Origin: a virus
DNA: 48,688 nucleotides
Direction: 5' to 3' (one strand)
Virus record (IMG/VR): IMGVR_UViG_3300042301_001415
Coordinates: 1 to 48,688 of that record
Below the pieces are notes generated by a model that was given only the letters and a program-made list of their open reading frames with translations, was not told the origin of the DNA and searched no databases. Below are positions 12,823 to 47,100 of the stretch, piece after piece (position 1 is the first letter of the stretch; each line of letters begins with the position of its first letter). Both the position numbers and the translations under genes were made by a program.

Positions 12823-12825
12823 GAC

Positions 12826-12856: not shown

Positions 12857-12868
12857 GAGCCGTTTAGA

Positions 12869-13194: not shown

Positions 13195-13218
13195 TTAGTT
13201 TTCCTTTCGAATGATTTT

Positions 13219-13242
13219 ATTTTACAGCAACCCTACGACATT
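13219..13242 (-). promoter_or_regulatory. box promoter (AATGTC-N12-TAAAAT)
   Basis: Drives the 68/39-aa pair. Confidence 0.75.
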
Positions 13243-13412: not shown

Positions 13413-13438
13413 TAGTTTTCCTATTCTTAGTTAGTTAG

Positions 13439-13462
13439 ATTCTATCAGTAGCCTACGACATT
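13439..13462 (-). promoter_or_regulatory. box promoter (AATGTC-N12-TAGAAT)
   Basis: Drives the 56-aa gene. Confidence 0.75.
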
Positions 13463-13658
13463 ATGATTCGTAGGGTTCTGGGCAATACTCACTGAAACGA
13501 TAAGAGTTCTTTCCTGTTTCGATAGTGTGAAGCCACGCATTGCCAAAGCGTGATTTGTGAATGTGAACGCCACACATTGAGCATACGCCAAAGTAGGTGT
13601 TGTCTAGGCGGTAGCCTTGACGGATTTCTAGGGCTTTGAAATTGGTGCTAGTGAACAT
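13461..13658 (-). CDS. zinc-binding-type protein, 65 aa
   Basis: MFTSTNFKALEIRQGYRLDN then CSMCGVHIHKSRFGNAWLH and a late Cys: CxxC plus His/Cys ligands. SD AAAGGAACTAA. Confidence 0.74.
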   Translation of the reverse strand: MFTSTNFKALEIRQGYRLDNTYFGVCSMCGVHIHKSRFGNAWLHTIETGKNSYRFSEYCPEPYES

Positions 13659-13685
13659 TTAGTTCCTTTCTTTTTATCTACCTTG

Positions 13686-13709
13686 ATTCTAGCATAGGGG
13701 TATGACATT
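13686..13709 (-). promoter_or_regulatory. box promoter (AATGTC-N12-TAGAAT)
   Basis: Drives the 65-aa gene. Confidence 0.75.
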
Positions 13710-13807
13710 GGAACGCTTGAAACGCCCTATTTTGCCCTATTTTGAAATTGTTTACCTATTATTCATTTGATGAATTTTTCCTGTGAATGTTTCTCGGGCG
13801 TGTCGGG

Positions 13808-13816
13808 GATCGGTGC
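13808..13816. promoter_or_regulatory. degenerate dyad site GATCGGTGC
   Basis: Immediately preceded by CTCGGGCGTGTCG. Confidence 0.45.
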
Positions 13817-13845
13817 AGCACCTATGACACTGGTGCGAGTGATTG

Positions 13846-13974
13846 TTAGACTTGCTCCCACCACTCATCACCAAAGGTTGCTAGGCGGTCTACTTCTGCC
13901 CAGAACGCTACGCCATCAAGGGTAGTTCCCATTGCCGATAGTTCGGTTGCGATTTCGATTTGTAGTTCAGTCAT
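13846..13974 (-). CDS. hypothetical protein, 42 aa
   Basis: MTELQIEIATELSAMGTTLD then a Trp-rich end (FWAEVDRLATFGDEWWEQV). SD AGATAGGAAACAAG. Unknown. Confidence 0.68.
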   Translation of the reverse strand: MTELQIEIATELSAMGTTLDGVAFWAEVDRLATFGDEWWEQV

Positions 13975-14000
13975 CTTGTTTCCTATCTCTTGTTAGTTCT

Positions 14001-14024
14001 ATCCTAGCCTATGGCTACGACATT
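14001..14024 (-). promoter_or_regulatory. box promoter (AATGTC-N12-TAGGAT)
   Basis: Drives the 42-aa gene; its box begins 2 nt after the 3' end of tRNA-like A. Confidence 0.65.
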
Positions 14025-14026
14025 GT

Positions 14027-14136
14027 GGGTAGTGAGAGATTCGAACTCTCATCTTACGCCCTAGCCTATAACGATAAGTTTCACGCCTAGTATCTAAGTG
14101 TCTCTTAGGTTGCTTTACCAATTAAGCCAACTACCC
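14027..14136 (-). tRNA. tRNA-like RNA A, oversized anticodon region
   Basis: Minus-strand folding gives a perfect 7-bp acceptor (GGGTAGT/ACTACCC), 4-bp D stem (GCTT/AAGC) with a GG-containing D loop, and a perfect T arm (GAGAG-TTCGAAT-CTCTC). Between D and T arms there are 60 nt instead of about 22. No standard anticodon arm with U33 can be drawn; a CCTA/TAGG stem can close an insert of about 42 nt. Total 110 nt. No CCA is encoded (ACA follows). Could be a tRNA with an insert, or a tRNA mimic; amino acid not assignable. Confidence 0.55.
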
Positions 14137-14154
14137 TTATTTATTTATATTTAT

Positions 14155-14178
14155 ATCTTAGCCTATGGCTCTGACATT
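14155..14178 (-). promoter_or_regulatory. box promoter (AATGTC-N12-TAAGAT)
   Basis: Drives tRNA-like A with a predicted leader of about a dozen A/T nucleotides. Confidence 0.65.
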
Positions 14179-14180
14179 GT

Positions 14181-14295
14181 GGGTAGTGGAAGAATTGAAC
14201 TTCCAATAAACGCTCAGTTGCCTAGATACTTCGCTAACGCTTCTTCTGCTGTTTCCTGATTCTTTGAGTTTGTGATTCCGTTTCACTAACTACCC
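14181..14295 (-). tRNA. tRNA-like RNA B, oversized anticodon region
   Basis: Same acceptor (GGGTAGT/ACTACCC) as element A, 4-bp D stem GTGA/TCAC with GG in the loop, T arm GGAAG-TTCAATT-CTTCC, all perfect. The D-to-T interval is again far too long; CTCA/TGAG can close an insert of about 48 nt. 115 nt in total, no orthodox anticodon loop. Its D and T arms differ from element A by compensated changes, so the fold is selected. Confidence 0.55.
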
Positions 14296-14313
14296 TTATT
14301 TATTTATAGTTCT

Positions 14314-14337
14314 ATAGTATAGGGGGGGTCTGACATT
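14314..14337 (-). promoter_or_regulatory. box promoter (AATGTC-N12-TACTAT)
   Basis: Drives tRNA-like B. Confidence 0.65.
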
Positions 14338-14390
14338 GTCAATGCGACACGCCGAAAGATCGAAATTTCTTTATAACAGGTTGATAACAG

Positions 14391-14400
14391 GCATCGGTGC
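14391..14400. promoter_or_regulatory. dyad site GCATCGGTGC
   Basis: Followed by hairpin at 14402; preceded by CGACACGCC at 14346. Confidence 0.6.
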
Positions 14401-14401
14401 G

Positions 14402-14440
14402 ACCCTCTGACACCCTTTGTTTATAAGGGTATCAGGGGCG
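14402..14440 (-). other. hairpin family member 2
   Basis: CC(TC)TGA(CA)CCCTT...AAGGGTATCAGGGG around a TGTTTAT loop; stem differs from members 1 and 3 by compensatory changes. Confidence 0.55.
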
Positions 14441-14446
14441 ACACTT

Positions 14447-14590
14447 TTAGAAGGGTGGCAAATTCGCTTCTAGGTCATTTTCCAATTTGCTAATTTCTTT
14501 TAGCAACATCAAGACAATTGAGATTAGAGTGATTACCATCACAACACTACCAATTGCGAAAATCGAAAAGATAAAAAATAGTTCGTTCAT
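14447..14590 (-). CDS. membrane protein, 47 aa
   Basis: MNELFFIFSIFAIGSVVMVI then TLISIVLMLLKEISKLENDL: one long or two short membrane helices and a polar tail ending LPPF. One-base overlap with the upstream 58-aa gene. Confidence 0.7.
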   Translation of the reverse strand: MNELFFIFSIFAIGSVVMVITLISIVLMLLKEISKLENDLEANLPPF

Positions 14591-14766
14591 TAGTTGCTCT
14601 CTTTCATTACAGCATCAATAAATTTTGCGTGGTCAAAACGCTCGTTGTCTTTTCCAAACATCTCAGCAAACTTTTCAGCAATGTTTGCGAGAGTGATGAA
14701 ATCAATTTCATCAGCAACTGAATTTAGAATTTCAGCGGTAGAGATGTAGTCTTTTCTAGTCATCAT
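14590..14766 (-). CDS. conserved phage protein, 58 aa
   Basis: MMTRKDYISTAEILNSVADE ... AEMFGKDNERFDHAKFIDA: the MTRKDY...IA..L ... A..F..DN.RFD..rF..A pattern is common in small phage proteins, function unknown. Either of two tandem ATGs could start; GGAAATAAA precedes. Confidence 0.78.
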   Translation of the reverse strand: MMTRKDYISTAEILNSVADEIDFITLANIAEKFAEMFGKDNERFDHAKFIDAVMKESN

Positions 14767-14784
14767 TTTTTTTATTTCCTATTC

Positions 14785-14844
14785 TTATTGGTTGATTAGT
14801 ATCGCAATTGCGACAACGACAATTATAGCAATAGCCACAGACAT
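14785..14844 (-). CDS. possible membrane peptide, 19 aa
   Basis: MSVAIAIIVVVAIAILINQ, a pure hydrophobic helix with GGAAAG 8 nt upstream. The same DNA is the box promoter of the next gene, so the ORF may be fortuitous. Confidence 0.3.
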   Translation of the reverse strand: MSVAIAIIVVVAIAILINQ

Positions 14845-14845
14845 T
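14822..14845 (-). promoter_or_regulatory. box promoter (AATGTC-N12-TATAAT)
   Basis: Drives the 58/47-aa pair. Confidence 0.78.
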
Positions 14846-14848
14846 AGA

Positions 14849-15034
14849 CTACTTTCCATTTAGGTAGTAGTCCAACATCATTTGGCGTTGGTCATTAGTT
14901 AGAATTGCCCAAGCAAACCCTAACGCTTTCGCATAAGCAAGGTTGCTAGCCTGCTCGGCGTTGTAGTTGGTTTCTTCCTTGACGCTCTTAGCGATAGTAA
15001 GAATGATTTCGTTTAGTTGAGTGATGTTAGACAT
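14849..15034 (-). CDS. hypothetical protein, 61 aa
   Basis: MSNITQLNEIILTIAKSVKE, helical, ends MMLDYYLNGK. SD AAGAAAGGGCAACTT before ATG at 15034; upstream in-frame codons cross the promoter and are rejected. Confidence 0.75.
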   Translation of the reverse strand: MSNITQLNEIILTIAKSVKEETNYNAEQASNLAYAKALGFAWAILTNDQRQMMLDYYLNGK

Positions 15035-15061
15035 AAGTTGCCCTTTCTTGATAGTAGTTAG

Positions 15062-15085
15062 ATTATAGCAGTAGCCTAAGACATT
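15062..15085 (-). promoter_or_regulatory. box promoter (AATGTC-N12-TATAAT)
   Basis: Drives the 61-aa gene. Confidence 0.78.
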
Positions 15086-15251
15086 AGGCGTGTGTTTGGC
15101 AGTAGCCGTTCCAATTGTCTTTGACGGCTTTGCCTTCGCATTGCGATACAGGGCAAATACCCTGTTGCTTCTTAGCCCAAATACTTTCACTCGCAAGGGC
15201 AATTTTCGCACCTGCGGTGTTTAGGGCTTTGGTTGTTGCTTTGGTGTTCAT
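15084..15251 (-). CDS. Cys/His microprotein, 55 aa
   Basis: MNTKATTKALNTAGAKIALA, then CPVSQC...GYCQTHA: C-x4-C-x12-C-x2-H zinc-finger-like tail after a basic helix. Leader with AAGAAGGAATA before ATG. Confidence 0.72.
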   Translation of the reverse strand: MNTKATTKALNTAGAKIALASESIWAKKQQGICPVSQCEGKAVKDNWNGYCQTHA

Positions 15252-15275
15252 TATTCCTTCTTTCTAACTACTACT

Positions 15276-15299
15276 ACATTACCACAAGGGTAAGACATT
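15276..15299 (-). promoter_or_regulatory. box promoter (AATGTC-N12-TAATGT)
   Basis: Drives the 55-aa gene. Confidence 0.65.
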
Positions 15300-15399
15300 G
15301 GAAGGCCTTTTTGGGGGTGTTTTGCGACTTTCCCGAAAGAATTCATCAGGTTAATTCTTCCTGTGAATTTGATCGAAATTTGCATCTCGGGCGTGTCGG

Positions 15400-15409
15400 G
15401 GACCGATGC
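15400..15409. promoter_or_regulatory. dyad site GGACCGATGC
   Basis: Preceded by CTCGGGCGTGTCG, followed by hairpin family member 3. Confidence 0.55.
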
Positions 15410-15411
15410 AG

Positions 15412-15449
15412 ACCTCCGACATCCCAGTATCTATAAGGGATGTAGGCGG
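15412..15449 (-). other. hairpin family member 3
   Basis: CCTCCGACATCCC...GGGATGTAGGCGG with an AGTATCTATAA loop; CATCCC/GGGATG core stem. Confidence 0.55.
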
Positions 15450-15463
15450 TATGGCCTTACAGC

Positions 15464-15643
15464 CTAGCGGTTTTCATCCCTGCGGAACATTGCGTACAAT
15501 CCCCACATCATCAAGCCAGCACTGCTCACCATAAACAACAACGCTTGTGAAACTAGCGGTGGTGCGAAAAGCGACATTGCTACTGAGAGAATTCCAATTG
15601 AGAGAACAAAGAAACTCATTACTCTAAATTCTTGCTTATCCAT
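15464..15643 (-). CDS. two-helix membrane protein, 59 aa
   Basis: MDKQEFRVMSFFVLSIGILS...LFAPPL and a second hydrophobic stretch (LLFMVSSAGLMMWGLYAMF) ending RRDENR: helical hairpin with a basic C-terminus, holin-like in shape only. Start preceded by GGAAATAAAAA. Confidence 0.7.
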   Translation of the reverse strand: MDKQEFRVMSFFVLSIGILSVAMSLFAPPLVSQALLFMVSSAGLMMWGLYAMFRRDENR

Positions 15644-15672
15644 TTTTTATTTCCTATTCTTTGATTAGTTAG

Positions 15673-15696
15673 ATTGTACCATAAGGGTAAGACACT
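15673..15696 (-). promoter_or_regulatory. box promoter (AGTGTC-N12-TACAAT)
   Basis: Drives the two-helix membrane protein gene. Confidence 0.7.
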
Positions 15697-15871
15697 ACGA
15701 GATTAGGTGTCCTTGCAATTTCGATTCTACAATCTTGATTGCCATACGCAACCCTTCGCAAACATCACACTCTCGTGAATCTTCATCACACTTTATGACT
15801 GAATCCCAAAGTGCAATTACAATTTCGTGACGTGCAACATCTTTGGTTAGCATTTCGATCTGGTCTTTCAT
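15695..15871 (-). CDS. helical CDED/ECDVC protein, 58 aa (paralogue of 13242)
   Basis: MKDQIEMLTKDVARHEIVIA then CDEDSRECDVCEGLRMAI. Aligns end to end with the 56-aa protein at 13242. Confidence 0.75.
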   Translation of the reverse strand: MKDQIEMLTKDVARHEIVIALWDSVIKCDEDSRECDVCEGLRMAIKIVESKLQGHLIS

Positions 15872-15896
15872 TTATTTCCTATTCTTAGTTATCTTG

Positions 15897-15920
15897 ATTG
15901 TAGCATAAGGGTATGACACT
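15897..15920 (-). promoter_or_regulatory. box promoter (AGTGTC-N12-TACAAT)
   Basis: Drives the 58-aa paralogue. Confidence 0.7.
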
Positions 15921-16080
15921 ACTCAGGTAGTGGCAACCCATACTCTACACAGTGGCAGTTATTCTGCGACCACTCGCAACTTGGGCAGTATCCACCCTTT
16001 AGCAATGGCATAGCGTCTAACTCTGCCATTTCCTTATCAAACGCAATAGCGTCTGCCATTTCCAATTCATCTAGTGTCAT
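15919..16080 (-). CDS. zinc-knuckle microprotein, 53 aa
   Basis: MTLDELEMADAIAFDKEMAE acidic helix then YCPSCEWSQNNCHC: CPSC-x6-CHC metal motif like the 30-aa genes. SD AAAGGTCATA before ATG. Confidence 0.74.
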   Translation of the reverse strand: MTLDELEMADAIAFDKEMAELDAMPLLKGGYCPSCEWSQNNCHCVEYGLPLPE

Positions 16081-16102
16081 TATGACCTTTCTTGTTATTT
16101 CG

Positions 16103-16126
16103 ATTGTAGCATAGGGGTCTGACACG
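16103..16126 (-). promoter_or_regulatory. box promoter (CGTGTC-N12-TACAAT)
   Basis: Drives the 53-aa gene. Confidence 0.7.
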
Positions 16127-16129
16127 CTG

Positions 16130-16255
16130 TTAGAATCTAACAACGCTCACAACATCACTCATTGGGATTCCCCTATTGCTAAGGAAACTTCCCCAAATCT
16201 CAGCAGGTACTTCCAATACCTGTCCATCAACTAGTGTTATCTTTACAAATTCCAT
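16130..16255 (-). CDS. hypothetical protein, 41 aa
   Basis: MEFVKITLVDGQVLEVPAEI, beta-hairpin then helix, ends VVSVVRF. SD AAAGGAATACAAA. First leftward gene from the divergence point. Confidence 0.7.
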   Translation of the reverse strand: MEFVKITLVDGQVLEVPAEIWGSFLSNRGIPMSDVVSVVRF

Positions 16256-16281
16256 TTTGTATTCCTTTCTATCTACTACTT

Positions 16282-16305
16282 ACATTAGCATAGGGGTCTG
16301 ACATT
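16282..16305 (-). promoter_or_regulatory. box promoter (AATGTC-N12-TAATGT)
   Basis: Leftward promoter of the divergent pair. Confidence 0.68.
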
Positions 16306-16340
16306 GGGGGGTGCGACACGCCGATCTTTTGGCATTTATT

Positions 16341-16378
16341 ATAACGAAATGGTAACAACGCACCGATGCGTTCGTTAT
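16341..16378. promoter_or_regulatory. nested inverted repeat with dyad site at the divergence point
   Basis: ATAACG...AACGCA-CCGA-TGCGTT-CGTTAT: dyad site GCACCGATGC (16360-16369) at the centre of a longer palindrome, midway between leftward and rightward box promoters. Confidence 0.65.
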
Positions 16379-16424
16379 CAATCTGTTACAAAAAACATCA
16401 ATTTATGGGCGTGTCGTTAGGGTC

Positions 16425-16448
16425 AATGTCGGTGGTATGGTGTAGTGT
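16425..16448 (+). promoter_or_regulatory. box promoter, plus strand (AATGTC-N12-TAGTGT)
   Basis: Same architecture as the leftward promoters but inverted; drives 16475. Confidence 0.65.
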
Positions 16449-16474
16449 AGACAGTAGTTAGAGATAGGAAACAG

Positions 16475-16567
16475 ATGAACGGTTGGACATACGACGAGCA
16501 ATTCGACACGGCAGATAACACCTGCCCTGATTGCGACAAGGCGTATTCCCTATGCTCTTGTGAGTAG
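16475..16567 (+). CDS. Cys-motif microprotein, 30 aa (paralogue of 12613)
   Basis: MNGWTYDEQFDTADNTCPDC then DKAYSLCSCE. SD AGGAAACAG before ATG. Four Cys (CPDC, CSC) for a metal site. Confidence 0.72.
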   Translation: MNGWTYDEQFDTADNTCPDCDKAYSLCSCE

Positions 16568-16681
16568 TGTCTTAGGGTAGTGCTAAACTAAATAAGTAAA
16601 TAACAATGGATGAGCCTTTTAGGTGAGCCTCGCAAGAGCAAATAAACTAAAAGCAAATAAGCCCTAATCGAAAGGAAATCA

Positions 16682-16858
16682 ATGTCTATAAAAATCTATG
16701 ATGTTGAATGTGATGAATGCCAGAAATGGTTCGCAACGGATGATGTGTTCAATGTAGAATTCGCTGATAACAGTATGTGCGTGTATTGCTCAAAGTGTCT
16801 TGATGTTGCTTCAATGGTGTTTGAAATTGTTGATGTATGGAAATCAAAAGATAGGTAG
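16682..16858 (+). CDS. zinc-binding-type protein, 58 aa
   Basis: MSIKIYDVECDECQKWFATD ... CVYCSKC: CxxC and CxxCxxC knuckles, same family as the minus-strand 57-aa protein at 11669. SD AAAGGAAATCA. Confidence 0.75.
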   Translation: MSIKIYDVECDECQKWFATDDVFNVEFADNSMCVYCSKCLDVASMVFEIVDVWKSKDR

Positions 16859-16882
16859 CGTGTCTGTGGCTACTGATACAAT
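16859..16882 (+). promoter_or_regulatory. box promoter, plus strand (CGTGTC-N12-TACAAT)
   Basis: Starts right after the stop of 16682; drives the 42-aa gene. Confidence 0.62.
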
Positions 16883-16907
16883 AGGACTAACTAAGAAAGG
16901 TAAAACT

Positions 16908-17036
16908 ATGCTAAAAGCAATCGCAATCGCAAAGGCAACTAATTTTGTCGTGCGTGAAATCAAGAAGTTTGATGTGAACGTTTCTGTCGATAAGGCAACA
17001 TCAAAAGTCATCATCTCTATCCAACGAAAAAAGTAG
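16908..17036 (+). CDS. basic protein, 42 aa
   Basis: MLKAIAIAKATNFVVREIKK then FDVNVSVDKATSKVIISIQR: helix then beta-hairpin, net positive. AAGAAAGG SD 7 nt before ATG. Unknown. Confidence 0.7.
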   Translation: MLKAIAIAKATNFVVREIKKFDVNVSVDKATSKVIISIQRKK

Positions 17037-17090
17037 TTGATTAGTTTCACAATTCTTGTTTTGAATAACTCTTGATGATAGGAAAATAAA

Positions 17091-17168
17091 ATGGGTGTTG
17101 AAACTATTTTGCTAATTGCTGTGCTGTATGTTTTGCTAAAAGATAAGAAGGCCGATAAGAGTGAGTAA
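17091..17168 (+). CDS. membrane microprotein, 25 aa
   Basis: MGVETILLIAVLYVLLKDKK then ADKSE: one hydrophobic helix and a charged tail. GATAGGAAAATAAA upstream. Overlaps the next ORF by 8 nt. Confidence 0.6.
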   Translation: MGVETILLIAVLYVLLKDKKADKSE

Positions 17169-17295
17169 ACCTTTTATGTTTACAGGCTTAGGGGTGTCTT
17201 TGCTAATCGCTTGGAATTTTATTTCGACAATAAATTTTGGTGCGGTGGCAGGGTGTGTCGCTGGATACACGCTAGTGGACTTTTTATTTTATTAG
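17161..17295 (+). CDS. membrane microprotein, 44 aa, GTG start
   Basis: Two hydrophobic segments (MFTGLGVSLLIAWNFI and GAVAGCVAGYTLVDFLF). GAAGG 9 nt before GTG. The overlapping pair of tiny membrane proteins resembles holin/antiholin-like arrangements in layout, but is far from the lysin; role unknown. Confidence 0.55.
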   Translation: MSKPFMFTGLGVSLLIAWNFISTINFGAVAGCVAGYTLVDFLFY

Positions 17296-17394
17296 CGTGG
17301 CACCAGGGGTCATCACTTTATTTTTTATTGTGGTGGCACCAGGGGTGATCGTTTTTTTATTTTATTAGCGTGGCACTGGGGGGTATTGCCAAAA
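17281..17394 (+). repeat. three tandem repeats of about 36 bp
   Basis: GTGGCACCAGGGGT cores at 17297, 17333 and (GTGGCACTGGGGGG) 17370, separated by T/A-rich TTTTTATTTTATT blocks. First unit overlaps the stop of the 44-aa gene. Confidence 0.7.
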
Positions 17395-17617
17395 CAATCT
17401 CCCTATCTTGAGCAAGATCATTACAATTAGACAATGTGTAAAACAATCTAATTAGTTTTGCTTGTGTGCTCACTATATCGTTTTGCGTATTTTTTGCTAG
17501 TTGTGTATCATACATCTCTACAAAATATTCAGATTTTGTCCAAATCAAAATTTTTTCAGATTTGCCAGGTATGTATTATAACATTTGTATAACGAAGGCA
17601 TAACTTTGGCGGTATGG
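17395..17617. other. AT-rich intergenic stretch
   Basis: No convincing gene. A 63-codon minus-strand frame exists (17357-17548) but begins with TTG and has no SD. Otherwise only A/T-rich DNA leading to the 17618 promoter. Confidence 0.4.
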
Positions 17618-17623
17618 TAGAAT
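17618..17623 (+). promoter_or_regulatory. extended -10 (TGG-TAGAAT)
   Basis: 5 nt before the ATG at 17629; no -35 seen. Confidence 0.5.
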
Positions 17624-17628
17624 TAACC

Positions 17629-17703
17629 ATGACTATTCCTGATGTCCCTAATGAGATCAAAAAAGAATGCAAATGCAATAACTGCAAATGCAAGAATAAC
17701 TAA
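17629..17703 (+). CDS. Cys-rich microprotein with CKCNNCKC tail, 24 aa, leaderless
   Basis: MTIPDVPNEIKKECKCNNCK then CKNN. Alternating Lys-Cys like a metallothionein fragment. No SD; ATG 5 nt after the -10. Confidence 0.5.
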   Translation: MTIPDVPNEIKKECKCNNCKCKNN

Positions 17704-17738
17704 CCTAGTTCGCTAGAAATGTTTCGGGGTATAACAAG

Positions 17739-26588: not shown

Positions 26589-27986
26589 ATGGCAACAAGA
26601 ATGCTACAGAGAAGAGGAACTGCTGCTGAGTGGACCGCTGCAAATACAGTTCTAGCAACAGGTGAGGTTGGTTTTGAAACCGATACTGGTAGATTTAAGA
26701 TTGGTAATGGAAGTACAGCCTGGAACTCTCGTCCATATGCTGCTCCTGCACCTAACGCCGTGTCTGATCACGCTGCCCTTACTACAAACGTACATGGAAT
26801 TGAAGACACCTCTGATTTGGTTGTTACTGCTGATCTAGCCTCTCTGGCTCCTCTTGCTGGCCCTACTTTTAGCGGTACTGTAACCCTTCCTAACACAACC
26901 TCTATTGGAGATGTAAGTGCTACTGAACTTGCATACGTAAATGGTGTTACAAGTGCTATACAAACCCAACTAGACGCAAAACTAGCATCTGCTACCGCCT
27001 CTACTACTTACGCCCCACTATCTGGACCTACATTTACAGGAACGGTTGTTCTACCAAACACAACTTCGATCGGAGACGTTAGTAGCACTGAACTGGGATA
27101 TGTAAACGGAGTTACCTCTGCTATTCAGACTCAGATAGACGCTAAAGCCCCAACTGCAGATCCAACCTTTACAGGCACTGTATCAGGTGTAACAAAGACT
27201 CACGTTGGTCTTGGCAACGTAGACAACACCTCGGATGCTAATAAGCCTATTTCTACTGCAACACAAACAGCACTTGATGCAAAGGCATCACTTTCAGGAG
27301 CAACATTTACAGGCTCAGTTGAGATCGATCAGGACCTCGTTGTTGACGGAAACCTTACCGTAAACGGTACTGAATTTATAGCATCTGCCACCAGCATTAC
27401 AATTGAAGACAACATGATTCAGATTGCTCACACAAATTCAGCAAACACCGTTGATCTTGGTTTAGTAGTTGGATACAATGACGGAACAGCACAACATGCA
27501 GGTATCGTAAGAGATGTATCTGCTAACATCTGGAAAATTTTTAAAGGAGTAGAAACCGAACCAGCAACAACAGTTGCTTTCGGTGAAGGTTCTCTAGATG
27601 ATCTAGCAGTCAATAACATTGAAGTAGCAGGCGTTGTTTTTACTGACGGCACACAGACTAAGGTTGGCGTACCGTCTATCACCACAATCTCGCAGAAGAC
27701 CGATTCATACACCCTCGCCTCCTTAACAGAGCGTGACACAATTATTGAAATTAATAAATCAACTGGAACTACCCTGACAATTCCTACAGATGCAACAGTA
27801 GATTACCCAGTAGGAACTACACTAGACATCATCCAGACTGGCTCTGGTCAGGTAACAATTGCAGGTGCTGTGGGCGTTACTGTTAATGCTACGCCTGGAT
27901 TAAAGTTGCGTACTCAGTGGTCTTCTGCTACACTATTAAAGAGAGCCTCAAACACTTGGCTTGTGTTTGGTGACCTAACCGCATAG
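26589..27986 (+). CDS. tail fibre, 465 aa
   Basis: Begins MATRMLQRRGTAAEWTAANT, GEVGFETDTGRFKIGNGSTA: the RRGT..eW...n..La.GE.g.EtDt..fKIGdG...W fibre head-domain signature. Then two 42-45-residue stalk repeats (TLPNTTSIGDVSATELAYVN), a VDGNLTVNGTEF segment and a C-terminal cap homologous to the 216-aa protein at 21199. Confidence 0.88.
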   Translation: MATRMLQRRGTAAEWTAANTVLATGEVGFETDTGRFKIGNGSTAWNSRPYAAPAPNAVSDHAALTTNVHGIEDTSDLVVTADLASLAPLAGPTFSGTVTLPNTTSIGDVSATELAYVNGVTSAIQTQLDAKLASATASTTYAPLSGPTFTGTVVLPNTTSIGDVSSTELGYVNGVTSAIQTQIDAKAPTADPTFTGTVSGVTKTHVGLGNVDNTSDANKPISTATQTALDAKASLSGATFTGSVEIDQDLVVDGNLTVNGTEFIASATSITIEDNMIQIAHTNSANTVDLGLVVGYNDGTAQHAGIVRDVSANIWKIFKGVETEPATTVAFGEGSLDDLAVNNIEVAGVVFTDGTQTKVGVPSITTISQKTDSYTLASLTERDTIIEINKSTGTTLTIPTDATVDYPVGTTLDIIQTGSGQVTIAGAVGVTVNATPGLKLRTQWSSATLLKRASNTWLVFGDLTA

Positions 27987-27998: not shown

Positions 27999-28694
27999 AT
28001 GAGTAAAAGAGCAGGAAGAAAGTCGCAGTCGCAAAACGACTTTTTGCAGCCCTCTACGCCAGTAAGCGTATCTGCTACTGACGTAGGAACTAACCGAGCA
28101 TTTAACAACGGAGCAGCCACAGTAACCTTTAGCCTACCTGCTGGTTCTCCTGCAGCCACCTCATTTACCGCAACCTCTAGCCCAGGTAGTTTTACAGCGA
28201 CTGGATCATCGTCACCACTAACGGTTGAAGGATTGCAGTCAGCCACTTCTTATACATTTACTGTTACCGCTACCAACGCAGCAGGTACCTCTAGTGCATC
28301 TTCAGCCTCTACAGCAATCACTGCTACTACTGTTCCTAATACCATTGGAACTCCAACTGCAACCGCTGGAGTTGACTCAGACACATTATCTTGGACCGCC
28401 CCCTCAAATGGTGGTAAAACCATCAATCTTTATAGGTGGACATCATCTGATGGAAAAACTGGAACAACTACATCAACCTCTGTAACAATTAGCCAGGAAG
28501 CAAACACTGCTCAGACGTATCAAGTTCGTGCAGAAAATGACAACGGTAATGGAACGTATTCTGCTAATTCTAACAGTGTAACGACGCTACCCCCATACTT
28601 CCCACCATATTTTCCTCCATATTTTCCTCCATACTTCCCACCCACCTTTGGCCCATATTTCCCACCTTACTTTGGTGGCTTTGTAGGCACATAA
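27999..28694 (+). CDS. fibronectin-III fibre with PPYFPP tail, 231 aa
   Basis: Two FN3 domains (about 15-105: ...SATSYTFTVTATNAAGTSSA; 106-197: ...QTYQVRAENDNGNGTYSANS) and a 30-residue C-terminus of (P)PYFPP repeats. FN3 domains in phage tails attach to surface carbohydrate; the Pro-rich end is a likely substrate for the hydroxylase next door (inference). Confidence 0.85.
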   Translation: MSKRAGRKSQSQNDFLQPSTPVSVSATDVGTNRAFNNGAATVTFSLPAGSPAATSFTATSSPGSFTATGSSSPLTVEGLQSATSYTFTVTATNAAGTSSASSASTAITATTVPNTIGTPTATAGVDSDTLSWTAPSNGGKTINLYRWTSSDGKTGTTTSTSVTISQEANTAQTYQVRAENDNGNGTYSANSNSVTTLPPYFPPYFPPYFPPYFPPTFGPYFPPYFGGFVGT

Positions 28695-28718
28695 CAAGAT
28701 AACAATTAGGAGAAATGA

Positions 28719-29375
28719 ATGACTGAAAGAACTTGGACATCAGAAGAAGAACTAGCACCAGGAATATTTGTGTACCACGATGCACTTCCTAACGGCATGG
28801 AAATAATCAAAAGACTAGAAGCCGTTTTAGAAGACCCTACAAGCCACTATGGATATGCTGAAGCCATGGTTGGTTATGCACAAAAGATGCCTGAGTACCG
28901 TGATTGCTACGATTTCAAATATAAGCGTACAGACATAGATAGCGATCAGTCCCCTGCTGGCGATGAACTTAGAGATATTTGGGATGTAGTTCACAACTCC
29001 ATGGTTGGCCCAGTTGCAGACTATTGCCAAAGATTCCCTATTGGCGAACTTAAGTACTGGGAGGCTAATAACTTTATTAAGTATGGACCAGGGCAACACT
29101 TCCAAGAGCACACTGATCATGGATTCTCATATAACAGCACTCTATCTGCGGTACTCTACCCTAATGATGACTATGAAGGTGGAGAATTGTTTTTCCGCCT
29201 ACAAGGCCTTAAGGTAAAAGCAAAGGCTGGAGACCTATTCTTGTTTCCATCAAACTTTATGTATCCACACCGAGCAATGCCAGTAGAATCTGGATTTAAG
29301 TATTCTATTGTTACCATGCTTGACTACAGTGCAAAGTTCCACACTCCAGAGATGTACAAAGAAACTGGAAACTAG
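28719..29375 (+). CDS. 2OG-Fe(II) oxygenase, prolyl 4-hydroxylase-like
   Basis: 218 aa with the double-stranded beta-helix iron motif His131-x-Asp133 (EHTDHGFS), His184 (YPHRAMP) and 2-oxoglutarate-binding Lys194 (SGFKYS); GGELFF strand between. Such enzymes hydroxylate prolyl, lysyl or small-molecule substrates using 2-oxoglutarate and O2. SD AGGAGAAATGA. Sits directly after the PPYFPP fibre. Confidence 0.85.
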   Translation: MTERTWTSEEELAPGIFVYHDALPNGMEIIKRLEAVLEDPTSHYGYAEAMVGYAQKMPEYRDCYDFKYKRTDIDSDQSPAGDELRDIWDVVHNSMVGPVADYCQRFPIGELKYWEANNFIKYGPGQHFQEHTDHGFSYNSTLSAVLYPNDDYEGGELFFRLQGLKVKAKAGDLFLFPSNFMYPHRAMPVESGFKYSIVTMLDYSAKFHTPEMYKETGN

Positions 29376-29427
29376 TAACCTAGTTAACTTTAACAACTAT
29401 ACATAACCTTAAATTTAGGAACCGCAA

Positions 29428-30159
29428 TTGACAAACATAATTAAGTTTTTTTCTAATCGTCCATGGCTAACTGCTAACAGCATCTCCAAGCCCGAGCCTA
29501 TTATAAAAACCATTCCAGAATGGTATAGGAAAGCAGATAGGTTTGCAGTAGACCCAGTAACTAATGAAGTTTGGAAAGGCCCAGACGGAGGTAAGGTCCC
29601 TACCTGGAAGTCTTGCCCAGCAGTGTTTGACATAATGGGTTCTGGGTATGCACTCAAGACTCCATGTGATCTAGAATTTTATTTAGATGAAGCAGGCGTT
29701 ATACAGGTACGAATAGAAAATCCTGCATACCAAGACTTTTGCACAAAACGTCCACCTATGCCTCAGTTTCAGAATCCTTTAGGATATCACCCACATCACT
29801 TTGCCTGGCTCCCCGACTGGGGCGTTGGTGTCCCAGAAGGATATAGCGTTCTTTACACCCATCCACTAAATAGGTTTGAACTTCCGTTTTTGACCACTAG
29901 CGGTATTATCGATAATGACGCTGTAAATCAACCTGGAATGATGCCATTCTTTGTTAGCAGATCTTTTCAAGGTATTATTCCAGCAGGCACTGTTTATGCT
30001 CAGATGATACCGTTTAAACGAGACAACTGGGAATCTGAACCAGTTATTCAGTCGGTAGAGCAGATGTTTGAAAAGCATAAAGAAACTGCAGAGATATATA
30101 GAATACCAGATGGTGGAGTCTACAAAGATAAAGTCTGGACAAGAAGGTCATACAAGTAA
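29428..30159 (+). CDS. DUF6065-like protein, 243 aa
   Basis: Carries the ...GYHPHHFAWLPDWGVGVPEG YSVLYTHPLNR motif, then TTSGIIDNDAVNQPGMMPFF, GIIPAGT and QMIPFKRDNW, which I associate with DUF6065: an uncharacterised, probably cupin-like family in aquatic phages and bacteria. Several conserved His (HPHH, THPLNR) could bind metal. TTG start, AGGAACCGCAA upstream; TAATG with the sulfotransferase, so functionally linked. Confidence 0.72.
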   Translation: MTNIIKFFSNRPWLTANSISKPEPIIKTIPEWYRKADRFAVDPVTNEVWKGPDGGKVPTWKSCPAVFDIMGSGYALKTPCDLEFYLDEAGVIQVRIENPAYQDFCTKRPPMPQFQNPLGYHPHHFAWLPDWGVGVPEGYSVLYTHPLNRFELPFLTTSGIIDNDAVNQPGMMPFFVSRSFQGIIPAGTVYAQMIPFKRDNWESEPVIQSVEQMFEKHKETAEIYRIPDGGVYKDKVWTRRSYK

Positions 30160-30848
30160 TGTCATCATCAAACAATGCTTATGAAACTATTGCAGAACTT
30201 TTTGCAGAGACAAAAAGCAGGGACGGTAAGTTCGTAACAAGTCCAGATTTTGCTGTTGAAGGTTTTCCAAGATCTGCGAACACATTCTTAGTAACAGCCT
30301 TAAACATGTCTTGGCCTAATATGGCTGTGCAAAGTCATAGTCACGACTCTAAGAATCTAACAACTGCAGATGGTTCATTTCCTGTAGTATCAGTAATTCG
30401 GAACCCCCTAGACGCAATAGCGTCTTGTTCTGTGTACCTTTCGCTAAAAGAACCTGAAAAAGGTAAAAACTTTACAAGGTTAATAGACCTGTACGGAGAT
30501 CTGATCTATTGTGCTCAGAACAATTCTAATGTATTTGTTATACCTTTTGAAAAAGTCACCTCTGACATAGTTGGTACATTGGACTTAATAGAGGCTAAGT
30601 ATGGTTTAGAAAAAAGAGTGCCCCTAAGTCCCGAAAACATATTTGAGAAGACATCTGATCTAAGCAAAATGGTTAATCAAAATGATGAGTCTTTTAGCAA
30701 AAGGGGGCATGTGCCCAGAGACACCCACCCACTTTATTCAGAAATTCTAAAAGAACTACAAAATCCAATTTATAGAGAATCTTTGAGTAACGTAACAAAG
30801 ATATATAACAGTTTGATCCATGATTTTTATCAGTCCTTTAAAAAATAA
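30159..30848 (+). CDS. sulfotransferase-family protein, 229 aa
   Basis: PAPS-binding signatures: 5'-phosphosulfate loop VEGFPRSANTFL (res 33-44, Arg38) and 3'-phosphate motif VVSVIRNPLDAIAS (Arg81, Asp85); His60/His62 near the expected catalytic position. Transfers sulfate to hydroxyl or amino groups in the family; target unknown. Coupled by TAATG to the DUF6065-like gene. Confidence 0.82.
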   Translation: MSSSNNAYETIAELFAETKSRDGKFVTSPDFAVEGFPRSANTFLVTALNMSWPNMAVQSHSHDSKNLTTADGSFPVVSVIRNPLDAIASCSVYLSLKEPEKGKNFTRLIDLYGDLIYCAQNNSNVFVIPFEKVTSDIVGTLDLIEAKYGLEKRVPLSPENIFEKTSDLSKMVNQNDESFSKRGHVPRDTHPLYSEILKELQNPIYRESLSNVTKIYNSLIHDFYQSFKK

Positions 30849-30900: not shown

Positions 30901-33900
30901 ATGTCTAACCCATCCAATATCTATGCTGAAAAAGCCTACAGTGAGCATCCAATTGCCATGTGGGCATTCGACGACCAACTAGACTATGTGTCTTATCTAA
31001 GCGACTCTGGAAGAGACCTAACAGATGGCTGGACTATCCCAGAAGACCCAGACATAAGTGACGATGTTGAGATCACGCAAGACTCATCAAATCTGGGCCA
31101 ATACCTTGGTGGTGGCCTTTATAAGATAACAGCCACAAAAAGACCGCTTGAAGACTTTGTGGGAAAAACTAGAATAACTAGTCCAGTGGTAACAAATTTT
31201 GCAGACATGGACATAGACCTTGCAACCATGTCAATTGGCTCATACTTTTACTCAGATACAGAATATGTAAAGTCAGTTACCCTAGGCTTTACCTATATAG
31301 AAGAAATTACCCAGCAAGTCGTCAGGGTATCAAAAACATTTGAAACTACCATATACAATAACTGGCTATATCTTGCAGAAACCTTTGACATCCCAAACGA
31401 AACAAGTGATGTAAACCTATTTTTTGACATAGAATACTTTGACAGCGAAGATCCAGCAACAGAGTATGTGTTTTATATTAATGGCCTTAGTCTGGGCCAA
31501 TGGTCAGAAGAGTTTCAGTCAGAATCTCTGGGATTAGTTTATAAGGAAGATGGCTCTGGATCAATCATTGACTTCCCAAGTACCATTGCAGTTGACGGTG
31601 CTGACAAAGCGGTAGAGGCAAAAGCCTATGGACTACAAGAGACGCACGGATATTACCTATCTACCCAAAACAAAATATTTGCACAGAACGCTGGAATGCC
31701 AATGGTCTTTGGTGCTGAGTCTGTAACAAGATTGATAGATAATGCTGGGCTACCGTCTGTAATTATTCCAGCAAGCGGAATGCTAAACGATACTGGAAAG
31801 CACACCACCTACACGCTTGAGGCATGGATGAGAATTGATTCTTCGTCAACAACGCCACAAAGAGTTGTTGGGCCAGTTGGTTCTAACGATGGTATCTATG
31901 TAGACCATGAAAGATTCTACCTAAAGATTTCTGAAAACGTTAAGTCTGCACCTGTTCCAGAATGGGGAAGGCCAATGCTTGTTCATCTAAAATACTTCCC
32001 AGGCAGACTTGCCCTAGTCGTAAACACAGAAGAACTAATCAGCATTGAGTTTGATGAGATTAACACCTACTTGCCAGATAAACTCAGTGCATCAGGAAAA
32101 GATCAGGATTGGATTGGTTTCTATTGCACACCAGACGTAGCAATTGACCTAGACTGCGTTGGAATTTATCCATACGATGTTGACAAAACCTTGGCTAAAA
32201 GAAAATGGGTATATGGACAAAACGTTGAATATCCAGAAAACCTAAATTCTGCATATGATGGAAAGACTGTGGCAATAGATTATCAAAGTTCAAACTATGC
32301 AGCAAACTTTGTATTCCCCAAGAACAGTCCATGGACAAGTGGTATATCGGACAATATTAGTTTTACTCAAAATTCAATTGCTAGCCCATTACATCCGCTA
32401 CCAGAGATAGTCCTTTCTTCTGGCTCTAGCACCTTGTGGTTAGAAGACCAGGCACTAAATAACTACGAGGCTGAAACATATTTCAAGATGAGGCCTGGAA
32501 CAAGTTGGGAAACCGTCTATGGCTACCTGTATCTTGACAGTATTTCTTTTATATCTGATCAACTAAAAACAGTTTATGGAATATTCAAAACATTGCAAAC
32601 ATCGTCATTAGAACAAATTCTTATTAAGATAAGGGACAAGTCTTCTGGAAACTACTTCAGTATTGTTACACAGGATGAAGATGTGCTATATAAGTATTAC
32701 AATGGAACATCTGAATCAACAATAAAAACGGTTCCTGTAAACCTTGCTACAGAAATGTTCGTTGCTGGCATAGATCTGGACAAGGTTTCTTCATATTATG
32801 GTCAAGAACTTATTCAATTTTTTGCTAATAGAAATAACTTTGAGATATTCATTGCTGGAGACAATACATTTGAAAACACCTACCTTGGAAATGTGTATAA
32901 TTTCTCGTTATCTACGAGAAGAAACGCAAAAGCAATAGGCTTTATGTTTTCTGAAGACGGCGTAGCAATCGACAAAAACGAATTTGAAGATATTGTCTAT
33001 GACGCAGGAAATAGTTATTTTGGAAATAACTCAGATTACTGGACAACGGTTCTAGATGGTGGAGATCCATTATCAGTAATGTCTGACGTGTTTTACTCAT
33101 ACGTTGCAACCTATAGACTAAGCCCTAAGACATTCTTTGGCAACTTTGTTTTGGACGTATCTACACACTCAATCTGGGAAGACTATGTTCCGCTATCTCA
33201 CTTTGCTAAATACGTAAGGGGAGCAGAAGGCGGAGACTATTACGACCTTGACTTCATTCAGTTTAATATTGGATACCCATCACCAGGAAAGTTCCTGGAG
33301 CAAAAGACAGACACGGACACCTGGACCTATGGAGAACTACAGGCAGAGTATGGCACACCAACTCAGTATACCTATGCAGAACTTGACAATGAACTTTTCA
33401 GTGGATATCCATCTTACGAAGATCTAAAGAATAGAACAAAAACCCAGTATGTATATGACACAAGTTTATATTCAACAAAAACTTATGTGACATTTCAATA
33501 TGTTAGCACTGGGGCAAACACCCCAATAGAAACCTATGTTAATACCGAAAACGTTAGCACAAACAACTTAATTAAGGCAGGTGACGAGTGGGTAAACACA
33601 AAGTATGAAGTAATTGATGGAACCGTTATCTACCCACCAAGATCTGTAAAGTTCTCTGATCTAGCCATTGTCGTTCACGTAGAGATGATTTCAGATGGGG
33701 TAAGAACAAAGCCAGCATCAATTCCTAGCATAGAACTAACCTCTCAGGCATTGGACAACAAACTGCCAACGGCAGTTGGAACAAAGTTTGGAGTGCCACT
33801 ATATCCATACACTAAGAGCGGAATATACTTTAACTACAAAAGGGTCAATCCATTTAGGATATACAAAAGAAGCACACCATACCTATTCCTGAGCAGAAAT

Positions 33901-34653
33901 TCTGGAATTGAGTTGGTGGGTGACTACGAGCCATTAATAAACAGAGGCCTAACAGTTCCACTAAACCCAAAGTTAGCGTCAAAAGCCGATGTGGCAGCGG
34001 TACAGGTGCTGCTCAAATATAGCGGAGACTTCTTCCCATACTCATCAACACCAATCTTTGAGATACAGTCTAAAGATGCGTATATCAAGTTTTATCTAGT
34101 TGCAACACATCCAAATGGTAAAAGAGCAAAGATCTACGCAATCAACTCAAACACTGGCCTTGAGGAAAATGGAATAGCATTCTACATAAACGGAAAACTT
34201 GTTAAAAGTCCAACAATCTCAACTAAGCAGTGGTCAATGCTAGGCATCTCATTTCCTGCAAAACTTAATCTAAATAGTTTCTCTGGGGCATTTAGGATCA
34301 ATGGACCTATCTTGGTAAATCACCTATCATACTACCAGTCAACTGGTCTTCAGGAAAAAATCCTTACCACCTTTAGAATTTGGGATAGGGTTAAAGAAAC
34401 AATTACAAATGAGCAATTAGATTGGGACGACTGGAAGGGCAGCCTATCATCCCTAGGAACGTTCTCATGGAACAATGTTCTTGTAATTGGACAGATTAGC
34501 ACCTTGGGCATTAATTTGCCAGAAATATTTAAGGCCTATGTTGGAACAAACAAAACAATATTTGATGATGACGATGGTGTTAGGTTGTCTGGATATCGAT
34601 TTAGGACATATAGAAGGATAACGCCTGTTACGTTTACCAAGAAGCCATCATAA
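30901..34653 (+). CDS. large minor tail protein with LamG-like domains, 1250 aa
   Basis: Starts MSNPSNIYAEKAYSEHPIAM then WAFDDQLDYV, the known start of giant minor tail proteins in Streptomyces-type phages. Concanavalin/LamG-like beta sandwiches around 295-390 (TYTLEAWMRID ... GIYVDHERFYLKI), 520-680 and near 1060-1150. Probably part of the tail tip or a side fibre binding carbohydrates. Confidence 0.85.
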   Translation: MSNPSNIYAEKAYSEHPIAMWAFDDQLDYVSYLSDSGRDLTDGWTIPEDPDISDDVEITQDSSNLGQYLGGGLYKITATKRPLEDFVGKTRITSPVVTNFADMDIDLATMSIGSYFYSDTEYVKSVTLGFTYIEEITQQVVRVSKTFETTIYNNWLYLAETFDIPNETSDVNLFFDIEYFDSEDPATEYVFYINGLSLGQWSEEFQSESLGLVYKEDGSGSIIDFPSTIAVDGADKAVEAKAYGLQETHGYYLSTQNKIFAQNAGMPMVFGAESVTRLIDNAGLPSVIIPASGMLNDTGKHTTYTLEAWMRIDSSSTTPQRVVGPVGSNDGIYVDHERFYLKISENVKSAPVPEWGRPMLVHLKYFPGRLALVVNTEELISIEFDEINTYLPDKLSASGKDQDWIGFYCTPDVAIDLDCVGIYPYDVDKTLAKRKWVYGQNVEYPENLNSAYDGKTVAIDYQSSNYAANFVFPKNSPWTSGISDNISFTQNSIASPLHPLPEIVLSSGSSTLWLEDQALNNYEAETYFKMRPGTSWETVYGYLYLDSISFISDQLKTVYGIFKTLQTSSLEQILIKIRDKSSGNYFSIVTQDEDVLYKYYNGTSESTIKTVPVNLATEMFVAGIDLDKVSSYYGQELIQFFANRNNFEIFIAGDNTFENTYLGNVYNFSLSTRRNAKAIGFMFSEDGVAIDKNEFEDIVYDAGNSYFGNNSDYWTTVLDGGDPLSVMSDVFYSYVATYRLSPKTFFGNFVLDVSTHSIWEDYVPLSHFAKYVRGAEGGDYYDLDFIQFNIGYPSPGKFLEQKTDTDTWTYGELQAEYGTPTQYTYAELDNELFSGYPSYEDLKNRTKTQYVYDTSLYSTKTYVTFQYVSTGANTPIETYVNTENVSTNNLIKAGDEWVNTKYEVIDGTVIYPPRSVKFSDLAIVVHVEMISDGVRTKPASIPSIELTSQALDNKLPTAVGTKFGVPLYPYTKSGIYFNYKRVNPFRIYKRSTPYLFLSRNSGIELVGDYEPLINRGLTVPLNPKLASKADVAAVQVLLKYSGDFFPYSSTPIFEIQSKDAYIKFYLVATHPNGKRAKIYAINSNTGLEENGIAFYINGKLVKSPTISTKQWSMLGISFPAKLNLNSFSGAFRINGPILVNHLSYYQSTGLQEKILTTFRIWDRVKETITNEQLDWDDWKGSLSSLGTFSWNNVLVIGQISTLGINLPEIFKAYVGTNKTIFDDDDGVRLSGYRFRTYRRITPVTFTKKPS

Positions 34654-44172: not shown

Positions 44173-47100
44173 ATGGCTGATTCTCAGACTAATATCAATA
44201 TTAATATTGATACCAGTCAGGCCTTAGCAAATTTAAAGGCGTTACAGTCTCAGATATCAGCCTTCCAAACACAGATGGCTCGTGGCTCTGCCACACAAGC
44301 AGCAGCAGCAGCCAAACTTAGACAAAATCTAATCAATGATATTAATGCTGCAGGTAAGTTTAATGCAAGCATTCAAAACATCAAGACCACCACAGAGTCT
44401 TTTACAGAAGCACTTGAGAAAAACAAACTCTCAATGGGCCAATACTTTAGGTATGCTGGCGGTGCAACAAAGAACTTCGGAAAACTATTCAAGTCCGAAA
44501 TGTCAACCATTGATAAGGTTGCTCGTGAAAGAGTCAAGACTCTTCAAACCCAATACATCCAACTAGGCCGTGACGCTAGCGGTGCCATGAAGGCAATCGC
44601 AGTTAGACCTCTAGTTCTTGACATGAATGACCTGGGAACAAAAACAGCCATCGCTGCCCAGAAACAACAGATACTAAACCAACTACTAAAGCAAGGATCA
44701 ACTAACCTTCTCAACTGGGGTAAGAACACCCAGTGGGCTGGTCGTCAGTTGATGGTTGGTTTTACCGTACCGCTAACAATGGCAGGTACTGCAGCAGCAA
44801 AGATGTACATGGAACTAGAAAAGGGTTCTATCAAGTTTAAGCGTGTCTACGGAGATTTTAGAACTACTGCAAAAGAATCAGAAGACATGATTAAGAACCT
44901 AAAAATTCTTGCTCAGGAATACACTAAGTATGGTGTTGCGGTAGCAGACACAATGGAAATGGCTGCCGAGGCAGCAGCAGCAGGTAAGGTCGGAGCAGAC
45001 CTTATGCAGCAGGTAGCAAATGCTACAAGACTTGCGGTACTTGGATCTGTAGAACAGGCACAAGCACTAGAAACAACAATGTCTCTAACTAACGCTTTTG
45101 GAATTGCAGCAGAAGACCTAGCAGGAAAGATTGACTTCCTTAACGCAGTTGAAAACCAAACTGTTACATCTATCGAAGACCTCACCATTGCTATTCCAAA
45201 GGCTGCACCAGTTGTTAAACAACTTGGTGGAGACGTACAAGATCTAGCATTCTTCCTGACAGCAATGAAGGAAGGTGGAATTAACGCATCTGAGGGTGCT
45301 AACGCACTTAAGTCTGGTCTTGCATCTTTGATTAACCCAACAGGAAAAGCATCTGAGTTCCTTGCAAGTTTTGGTGTAAATGTTAAGGGCATTGTTGAGG
45401 CAAACAAGGGCGATGTAAAGGGCCTTGTCCTAGATTTTGCTAGTGCACTAGATACCCTAGACCCACTAAACCGAGCACGTGCCATTGAGCAAATGTTCGG
45501 TAAGTTCCAGTTTTCACGTCTATCGACATTGTTCCAAAACGTAATTCAAGAAGGAACTCAGGCACAAAAGGTTCTAGAACTAAGTAACGCAACCACAGAA
45601 GAACTTGCAATCCTGTCTGAGCGAGAACTGAAGAGGGTAGAAAGTTCCCCAATGTTTAAGTTTCAAAAGGCTGTTGAGGATATCAAGGTTAAACTTGCTC
45701 CAATTGGAGAGGCATTCCTTAAGGCAGTAACCCCAATCCTAGATTTTGTTTCTAAGTTCCTTGACGGATTTAACAAAATGTCAGAAGGGTCAAAAGCCTT
45801 CTGGGTAACATTTACAGGTTTGGTTGCTGGTGTTGGTCCACTACTTCTTATGTCTGTTGGTCTAGTAGCGAACGGTATTGCAAACCTTGTCAAGATGTTT
45901 GTCAACATCAAGTCTTTCATTAACAGAACAACACAAGAAACAGGTATGCTTGGAGAATCAACCACATACATGACCGAAACACAGATCAAGGCAGCAGCGG
46001 TAGCAGCATCTCTTGACCAGATTCACCAACAACTAACACAAAGATTTACTTCAGAAGCGGTAGCAGTAGATCAACTAACTCAGTCTTATGTAAGAAACAT
46101 AGATGCCCAGAGAGCGTATAGTCCTGCTGGAACTAATCCAACCAACATTGCTCCACAAAAATTTGCTAGGGGTGGAATGGTTTCTGGACCTGGAACAGGA
46201 ACCTCAGATTCAGTTCCAGCAATGTTGTCTAATGGTGAAGCCGTTATTCCAGCAAAATCAGTAAAGAAAAACAGAGGGCTTGTAGAAAACCTTATTTCTG
46301 GTAAGGTTCTAAAACTTGCTGAAGGTGGAATTGTTAACAAGGGAGAAAAGCAGTTCCTTGGAATGCCACAGTCGTTTAAGGCTAGACAGCGTAGTCAAGA
46401 AGACGCACAGGCGGTTTATGCTAAGTTTGCTGAATCACCACGAGCAGACATGCCAGTAACAAAATACAAGCACCAACTTTCAGTATCTAAGGGACACAGT
46501 TTCCCACTATTTAGAGTTGGTGGAATGTACGAGACCTTTGATGGTCGTAAAGTATTCGTAAAGCCAGTTATGGACTTCCAGTCTGCTATGGCAGAAATTC
46601 GTGGAACAGAGATTGCGAGAGGTGCTCATGGTCTGAGATCACCACAGCAAAGACTTGTTGCAATCAACGACCCTACAGACAAGACTGGAACCAGAAGGTT
46701 CTATGCCCTTGAGTCAGACTTTGACCCAACGTTCTCTGAAGTTCCACAAACATTCTCAAAGGAAGAATATACAACACAACTAGTGGCATCGCTACTGCGT
46801 GGAGATAAAGACCTAGGACAGGGAAACCTCGGAGGAAACATTCTTCCAGATGTCGGAACTGCAGGGGTATTTGCAAAGGCATCTGGATTCAGAGAATACG
46901 AACCTAACATGAAGTCCATGGAAGAACAGGCTCTTATTAATCTTCTTGGAGTAAAGGGTGGTGCAAAGAAATGGTTTGCTGAAAGCACTAAGGGTATTGC
47001 TGCAAGCATGTCACCACAAGAATACCAAGACAGAATGCGTAATGAGATTGAGCAAACGCTTCCAAGACTTAAACAAACAATTGCTGGCTTCCCAGACCTA

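Follow-up and report, generated by a model that had tools for sequence, protein, structure and literature searches.

Which protein, if any, do the modification enzymes encoded beside a phage fibre gene act on? The question is raised by a viral record of the IMG/VR database, IMGVR_UViG_3300042301_001415, whose 48,688 nt (48.7 kb) are referred to here as the window. On its plus strand lies a block of four genes, which encode a fibronectin type III (FN3) protein ending in PPYFPP repeats, a prolyl 4-hydroxylase (P4H)-type oxygenase, a DUF6065-related protein, and a 3'-phosphoadenosine 5'-phosphosulfate (PAPS) sulfotransferase. An initial annotation had proposed that the repeat tail is hydroxylated and sulfated by the products of the neighbouring genes. 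All four genes were confirmed as open reading frames (ORFs). We found that the tail, the P4H, and the DUF6065 family form a widespread phage module that occurs in many lineages. Hydroxylation of the tail prolines by the P4H of the module is the best explanation suggested by the sequence data, with a probability that we put at roughly two in three.

The repeat tail and the adjacent oxygenase gene

The first gene of the block (27999..28694, +; 231 aa) codes for a presumed fibre or virion protein and is placed among fibre genes, shortly upstream of the portal, protease, and capsid genes. The protein matched the FN3 family PF00041 with 37.3 bits against a cut-off of 25 (E=3.2e-9). Its C-terminal tail (28590..28694, +; residues 198-231) is the presumed modification acceptor and reads PPYFPPYFPPYFPPYFPPTFGPYFPPYFGGFVGT from residue 198. 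The predicted FN3 protein with terminal PPYFPP repeats is thus real. The five PPYF units are encoded by differing synonymous codons, indicating that the repeat is kept at the protein level. This codon variation points to selection on the protein and not to a recent expansion of the DNA.

Repeat tails of proline and aromatic residues were also present in other viral contigs, with a median of 13 and a maximum of 72 units, and were mostly located within 60 residues of the C-terminus. Their overall composition was 42% Pro, 40% Phe, and 3.6% Tyr, and the aromatic pair between the prolines was FF in 1037 cases, YF in 198, and WF in 8. Proline is the constant feature of the tails and tyrosine is optional; we therefore propose proline, rather than tyrosine, as the substrate of the module in its common form. 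Some of the proteins with P/F/Y-rich tails end in a Cys-rich stretch that follows the repeats (L008:5768-6478, L069:977-1879). Among 11.3 million bacterial and archaeal contigs scanned, the tail pattern was nearly absent: six contigs from metagenome-assembled genomes matched, and the phage-like ones among them contain a P4H or a DUF6065-family gene.

The second gene (28719..29375, +; 218 aa) encodes a member of the 2-oxoglutarate (2OG)-Fe(II) oxygenases, which scored 50 bits against the PF13640 gathering cut-off of 27 (5.9e-13). The HxD...H iron triad and the basic 2OG-binding residue were found exactly at H131, D133, H184, and K194, and the three iron ligands are invariant among seven diverse homologues. 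The full catalytic set claimed for this P4H-type dioxygenase was thereby confirmed. In a phylogenetic tree, the 22 nearest neighbours of the window P4H all belonged to tail loci, and control and cyanophage sequences followed only at a greater distance.

Linkage of the tail to the hydroxylase

More than 120 stretches in IMG/VR, whose contigs are fragments, match the tail at the DNA level. We assembled a set of 120 tail loci, selected only by a match to degenerate DNA encoding PP[FY]FPP[FY]FPP, and two control sets of 120 loci each, one with a Gly-rich fibre pattern and one with non-aromatic Pro-rich repeats. With a profile seeded from seven window-related sequences, a P4H was detected in 84/120 tail loci versus 6/120 Gly-rich controls (Fisher 8e-28), corresponding to densities of 28.6 and 0.6 P4H genes per 100 kb. 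In the Pro-rich controls the count was 3/120, by which the notion that any Pro-rich repeat attracts a P4H was rejected. The initial annotation would have had to be given up if the cassette genes were equally common without the fibre; for the P4H, the survey revealed the opposite. After loci sharing DNA had been collapsed to lineages, the P4H was present in 22/37 tail lineages versus 3/104 and 3/111 control lineages (p ~1e-13). Genes of the DUF6065 family showed the same distribution, with 63/120 tail loci versus 0/120 and 1/120 controls.

For independence from our own profile, we ran the curated PF13640 model on whole records. All 30 tail contigs of at least 40 kb gave a match, compared to 3/25 control contigs, and so did 25 of 30 further, mostly shorter tail records (one of which had already been counted). 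The linkage was equally evident in the reverse direction. Among 80 IMG/VR loci selected for a P4H nearest to that of the window (54-90% identity), 71 contained the repeat tail and all 80 a DUF6065-family gene. In eight of the nine tail-less loci, no more than ~1.4 kb precedes the first P4H, and the upstream gene is therefore cut off.

The P4H genes are also clustered within the genomes. Among the matches listed for 17 contigs, 70 of 84 P4H genes were located within 10 kb downstream of the tail, versus a mean of 16.3 and a maximum of 48 when the P4H set of each contig was circularly shifted as a block (20,000 trials). A phage type that merely happened to share both features would scatter its P4H genes along the genome, contrary to the clustering observed. 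Within these 10 kb, however, the P4H density is flat, with no pronounced maximum beside the tail. We therefore assert linkage of the tail to a series of downstream genes, not strict adjacency; several P4H genes in a row would be compatible with such a flat density.

The flat profile also speaks for an alternative in which the adjacency has no chemical meaning and the P4Hs, as part of a fast-exchanging fibre island, act on a different substrate (a second fibre, a glycan, or a protein of the host). In addition to P4Hs, these islands contain GPx-like, PhyH, SDR, carbamoyltransferase, and radical-SAM genes. We nevertheless consider this alternative improbable, because the linkage is nearly obligate in both directions and confined to one type of motif, whereas generic Pro-rich loci show none. 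Moreover, contig L008, which lacks this FN3 gene, has kept the combination of P4H and Pro-aromatic protein: a long PFF/PYF protein adjoins five P4Hs.

The proposed hydroxylation and the putative partner protein

According to the reading we prefer, the P-aromatic repeats are likely the target of the linked hydroxylases. The oxygenase would hydroxylate the tail prolines, in the window those of PPYFPP, in a reaction that uses O2, Fe(II), and 2-oxoglutarate and precedes or accompanies assembly. The modification might rigidify the tail or create a new surface chemistry, namely the hydroxyl group of hydroxyproline (Hyp), at the presumed host-contacting tip of the fibre. The prolyl hydroxylation put forward in the initial annotation is strongly supported by the two-way linkage, which was controlled, deduplicated, and backed by a positional test within contigs.

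Several observations weigh against this reading, for which the evidence is genomic. Of the five further tail records devoid of PF13640, three have no in-frame tail; L016, with 7 repeat units, and the edge-truncated L025 have a tail and no PF13640 match. The closest solved sequence relatives of the window P4H are the PKHD hydroxylase PiuC and the lysyl hydroxylase LH3, which means that the hydroxylated residue need not be proline. While our profile detected one P4H in the window, tail phages often have 6-12 per genome, a copy number for which one tail alone cannot account. The broader P4H family also occurs without tails. The phage 2OG-Fe(II) oxygenases phrog_61 and phrog_3531, common in cyanophages, belong to the same superfamily and share ~40% identity over the core with the window P4H. 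The three cyanophage regions and one methylophage region with a P4H that we examined contained no P-aromatic-P tail, and some of them lie in the replication region beside UvsX/gp41. The tail-less cyanophage P4Hs demonstrate that this target is not shared by all phage P4Hs. Finally, hydroxyproline was not detected in virions of the chlorovirus PBCV-1 despite its P4H (PMC7019647).

As to precedent, the initial annotation had called such a system unprecedented. For phages, this holds within the literature searched (preprints and many subscription journals were outside its scope), which contained no report of the motif in phages or of a phage P4H tied to a Pro-aromatic tail or to DUF6065. For viruses in general, a precedent has been proposed. 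Eriksson is said to have described in 1999 that the PBCV-1 P4H accepts Pro-rich repeat peptides as substrates. A viral P4H with Pro-rich viral substrates was proposed for PBCV-1 in 1999 (PMC7019647), and the PBCV-1 prolyl 4-hydroxylase (Eriksson 1999) is cited in PMC7019647 and PMC9301287. PBCV-1 differs in being a eukaryotic algal virus, for which a linked tail gene with DUF6065 is not reported. In the Baltic Sea water column, P4H genes rank among the commonest auxiliary genes of viruses, and one survey called their viral use 'cryptic' (PMC9301287); a phage P4H has been described as structurally similar to human EGLN3 (PMC12774648). Our analysis puts forward a defined substrate that can be tested for one subfamily of P4Hs and links DUF6065, a family of unknown function, to the P4H-tail module; the minimal four-gene set is suited for expression and mass spectrometry. 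If the proposal is true, chemical modification of the possibly host-contacting part of the fibre occurs in many aquatic phages, with consequences for host recognition and for how auxiliary metabolic genes are interpreted.

The third gene of the block (29428..30159, +; 243 aa, TTG start) corresponds to phrog_7084. Its designation as DUF6065-like was only partly borne out. The protein did not match the Pfam model of DUF6065 (PF19541) up to E=10. A profile-profile comparison with true DUF6065 revealed homology (hhalign probability 95%, E=3e-8), and three sequences were matched by both the phrog_7084-type and the DUF6065 profile. The protein is, judged by these profiles, only distantly related to true DUF6065, whose members share the module (L008:9430, 8e-24). 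The AlphaFold2 (AF2) model (pLDDT 86.7) had dCTP deaminase/dUTPase as best Foldseek matches in the PDB (E=6.6e-4), and the predicted fold of the window protein accordingly resembles that of dUTPase/dCTP deaminase. We suppose that it probably acts as a partner without catalytic function, either presenting the tail or binding it once modified. Genes of the phrog_7084 type also adjoin a tail fibre and an adhesin gene in MZ334515.1 (L315:11905-12741) and in ~50 related halovirus records of the HF1/HF2 group; in these halovirus regions no repeat tail was found and no P4H is annotated.

Sulfotransferases near the tails

The fourth gene (30159..30848, +; 229 aa) gave no match in Pfam, NCBIfam, PHROGs, a PDB sequence search, or phage records. 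The motifs PRSANTFL (5'-phosphosulfate-binding, residues 37-44) and IRNPxxAIAS (3'-phosphate-binding; RNPLDAIAS at residues 81-89) are invariant in five homologues. In a Foldseek search of the PDB with the AlphaFold2 model (pLDDT 78, pTM 0.75), the first 48 matches were all sulfotransferases or the close homologue retinol dehydratase, with E from 4e-6. By its invariant motifs and predicted fold, the protein is a divergent PAPS sulfotransferase, and the assignment made from its two binding motifs was borne out. It has the fold and both PAPS motifs in common with SULT and TPST enzymes; it differs from them in its smaller size, ~15% identity, a TM of ~0.45, and the lack of a sequence-level match. 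The divergence and the silence of the profile libraries could mean that one or more genes of the block are decayed, inactive passengers. This is very improbable given that the motifs are invariant across homologues of 57-100% identity and that no complete related copy has a disrupted reading frame.

The window-type sulfotransferase was found in only seven distinct IMG/VR contigs, which form one clade. A second, unrelated family (HIPKTAG/HIPRTSG type) lies just downstream of the tails of other phages (L391:4385-5071; L069:2161-3685; L044:3164-3931; L077:2429-3914; L057:9151-9924). It occurs in about a dozen tail contigs, sometimes in two tandem copies and sometimes as the gene next to the tail, as in L391, whose member passes PF03567. 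Taken together, the two families were present in 12/120 tail loci versus 0/240 controls, or 4/37 versus 0/104 lineages (p=0.004), a count biased towards tails by a profile seeded from tail loci. PF03567 on whole records was not enriched (2/30 tail versus 1/25 control records), for which reason we regard the association of sulfotransferase and tail as weak. Most tailed loci are devoid of a sulfotransferase; the two families are occasional additions to the module.

In the small clade of the window, the added sulfotransferase would probably sulfate the tail, at tyrosine or at the new Hyp hydroxyl group, or a sugar on the tail. We consider a sulfation step on the tail less likely than not. Of the sulfation claimed initially, the enzyme itself has stood, together with a second family near tails; the scarcity of sulfotransferases at tailed loci, the unenriched PF03567, and the Tyr-less repeats beside the sulfotransferases of L069 and L391 count against it. 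The latter repeats speak in particular against sulfation of the tail tyrosine of PPYFPP, which we deem unlikely. In its favour, window-clade tails have YF in every unit, while FF dominates elsewhere, and human TPST2 is among the fold matches, albeit 14th and behind the SULTs. The Tyr share of tails near any sulfotransferase was also higher (mean 0.51 versus 0.14, Mann-Whitney p=9e-4), in a test that is not independent because five of the 14 tails near a sulfotransferase came from one clade. Contig L138, with an all-Tyr tail, ends inside the DUF6065-type gene and is hence uninformative on the sulfotransferase.

The sulfotransferase could instead sulfate a polysaccharide or cell-surface glycan independently of the hydroxylase, which is possible at somewhat less than even odds. 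The second family near tails matches the PHROG 'galactose-3-O-sulfotransferase', and a cyanophage Sulfotransfer_2 gene is located within a glycosyltransferase cluster. We found no glycosyltransferase gene in the cassette of the window, however, and within the window clade the sulfotransferase invariably comes after the P4H and the DUF6065-type gene, accompanying both from one phage backbone to another in unchanged order. A complete scheme, in which several lineages possess a dedicated system for hydroxylating Pro-aromatic fibre ends with DUF6065 partners and some clades then add sulfate to yield a two-step modified fibre tip, appears rather doubtful.

The four-gene block and its surroundings

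The order FN3, P4H, DUF6065-type, and sulfotransferase gene is kept in five related IMG/VR contigs, two of which insert a second P4H, and L127 is a further contig with the same four genes. The block of L006 and L007 is 91% (FN3), 86% (P4H), 84% (DUF6065-type), and 57% (sulfotransferase) identical to that of the window and is followed by unrelated genes. Genes for a tail sheath and a gp19-like tail tube identify L006 as a contractile-tailed phage. The block thus retains its gene order despite a change in tail type, which is the behaviour of a module. Part of the Mtd_N-type fibre protein encoded upstream of the block (26589..27986, +; PF18454 7.3e-14) accompanies it in L006, with 81.5% identity over 249 aa. 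The LamG-like structural protein of 1250 aa on the downstream flank (30901..34653, +; weak PF13385 match) lies outside the conserved cassette, and its position in L006 is taken by unrelated genes.

Tail islands may hold further modification enzymes. A glutathione-peroxidase-like gene (L075:3231-3809; PF00255 1.8e-11) starts 10 bp downstream of the tail gene and belongs to a cluster present in 16 tail loci. Carbamoyltransferase, radical-SAM/SPASM, and PhyH genes were found downstream of some tails (L071:3985-5430; L351:3891-4958; L117:2284-3018).

When we looked for this tail in cultured phages, the FN3 protein, the DUF6065 query, and the second sulfotransferase had no match among phage records, and no cultured representative with a P-aromatic tail was found. 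The window portal is closest to those of Streptomyces phages (47%), from which an actinobacterial host is only a guess. Neither this nearest cultured portal relative nor an Arthrobacter fibre relative has the tail or a P4H in the regions examined.

The plus-strand half of the window contains, in order, fibre genes, the four-gene block, and the genes for the LamG-like protein, portal, protease, and capsid, as well as a tape measure gene. A stretch of ~6.7 kb (10974-17718) has no ORF of more than 120 aa on either strand, and reading TAG as Gln did not open a long frame there. The tape measure gene (44173-48687) is cut by the end of the record, and residues 1026-1173 of its product correspond to a HAD acid-phosphatase/polynucleotide-kinase-like domain.
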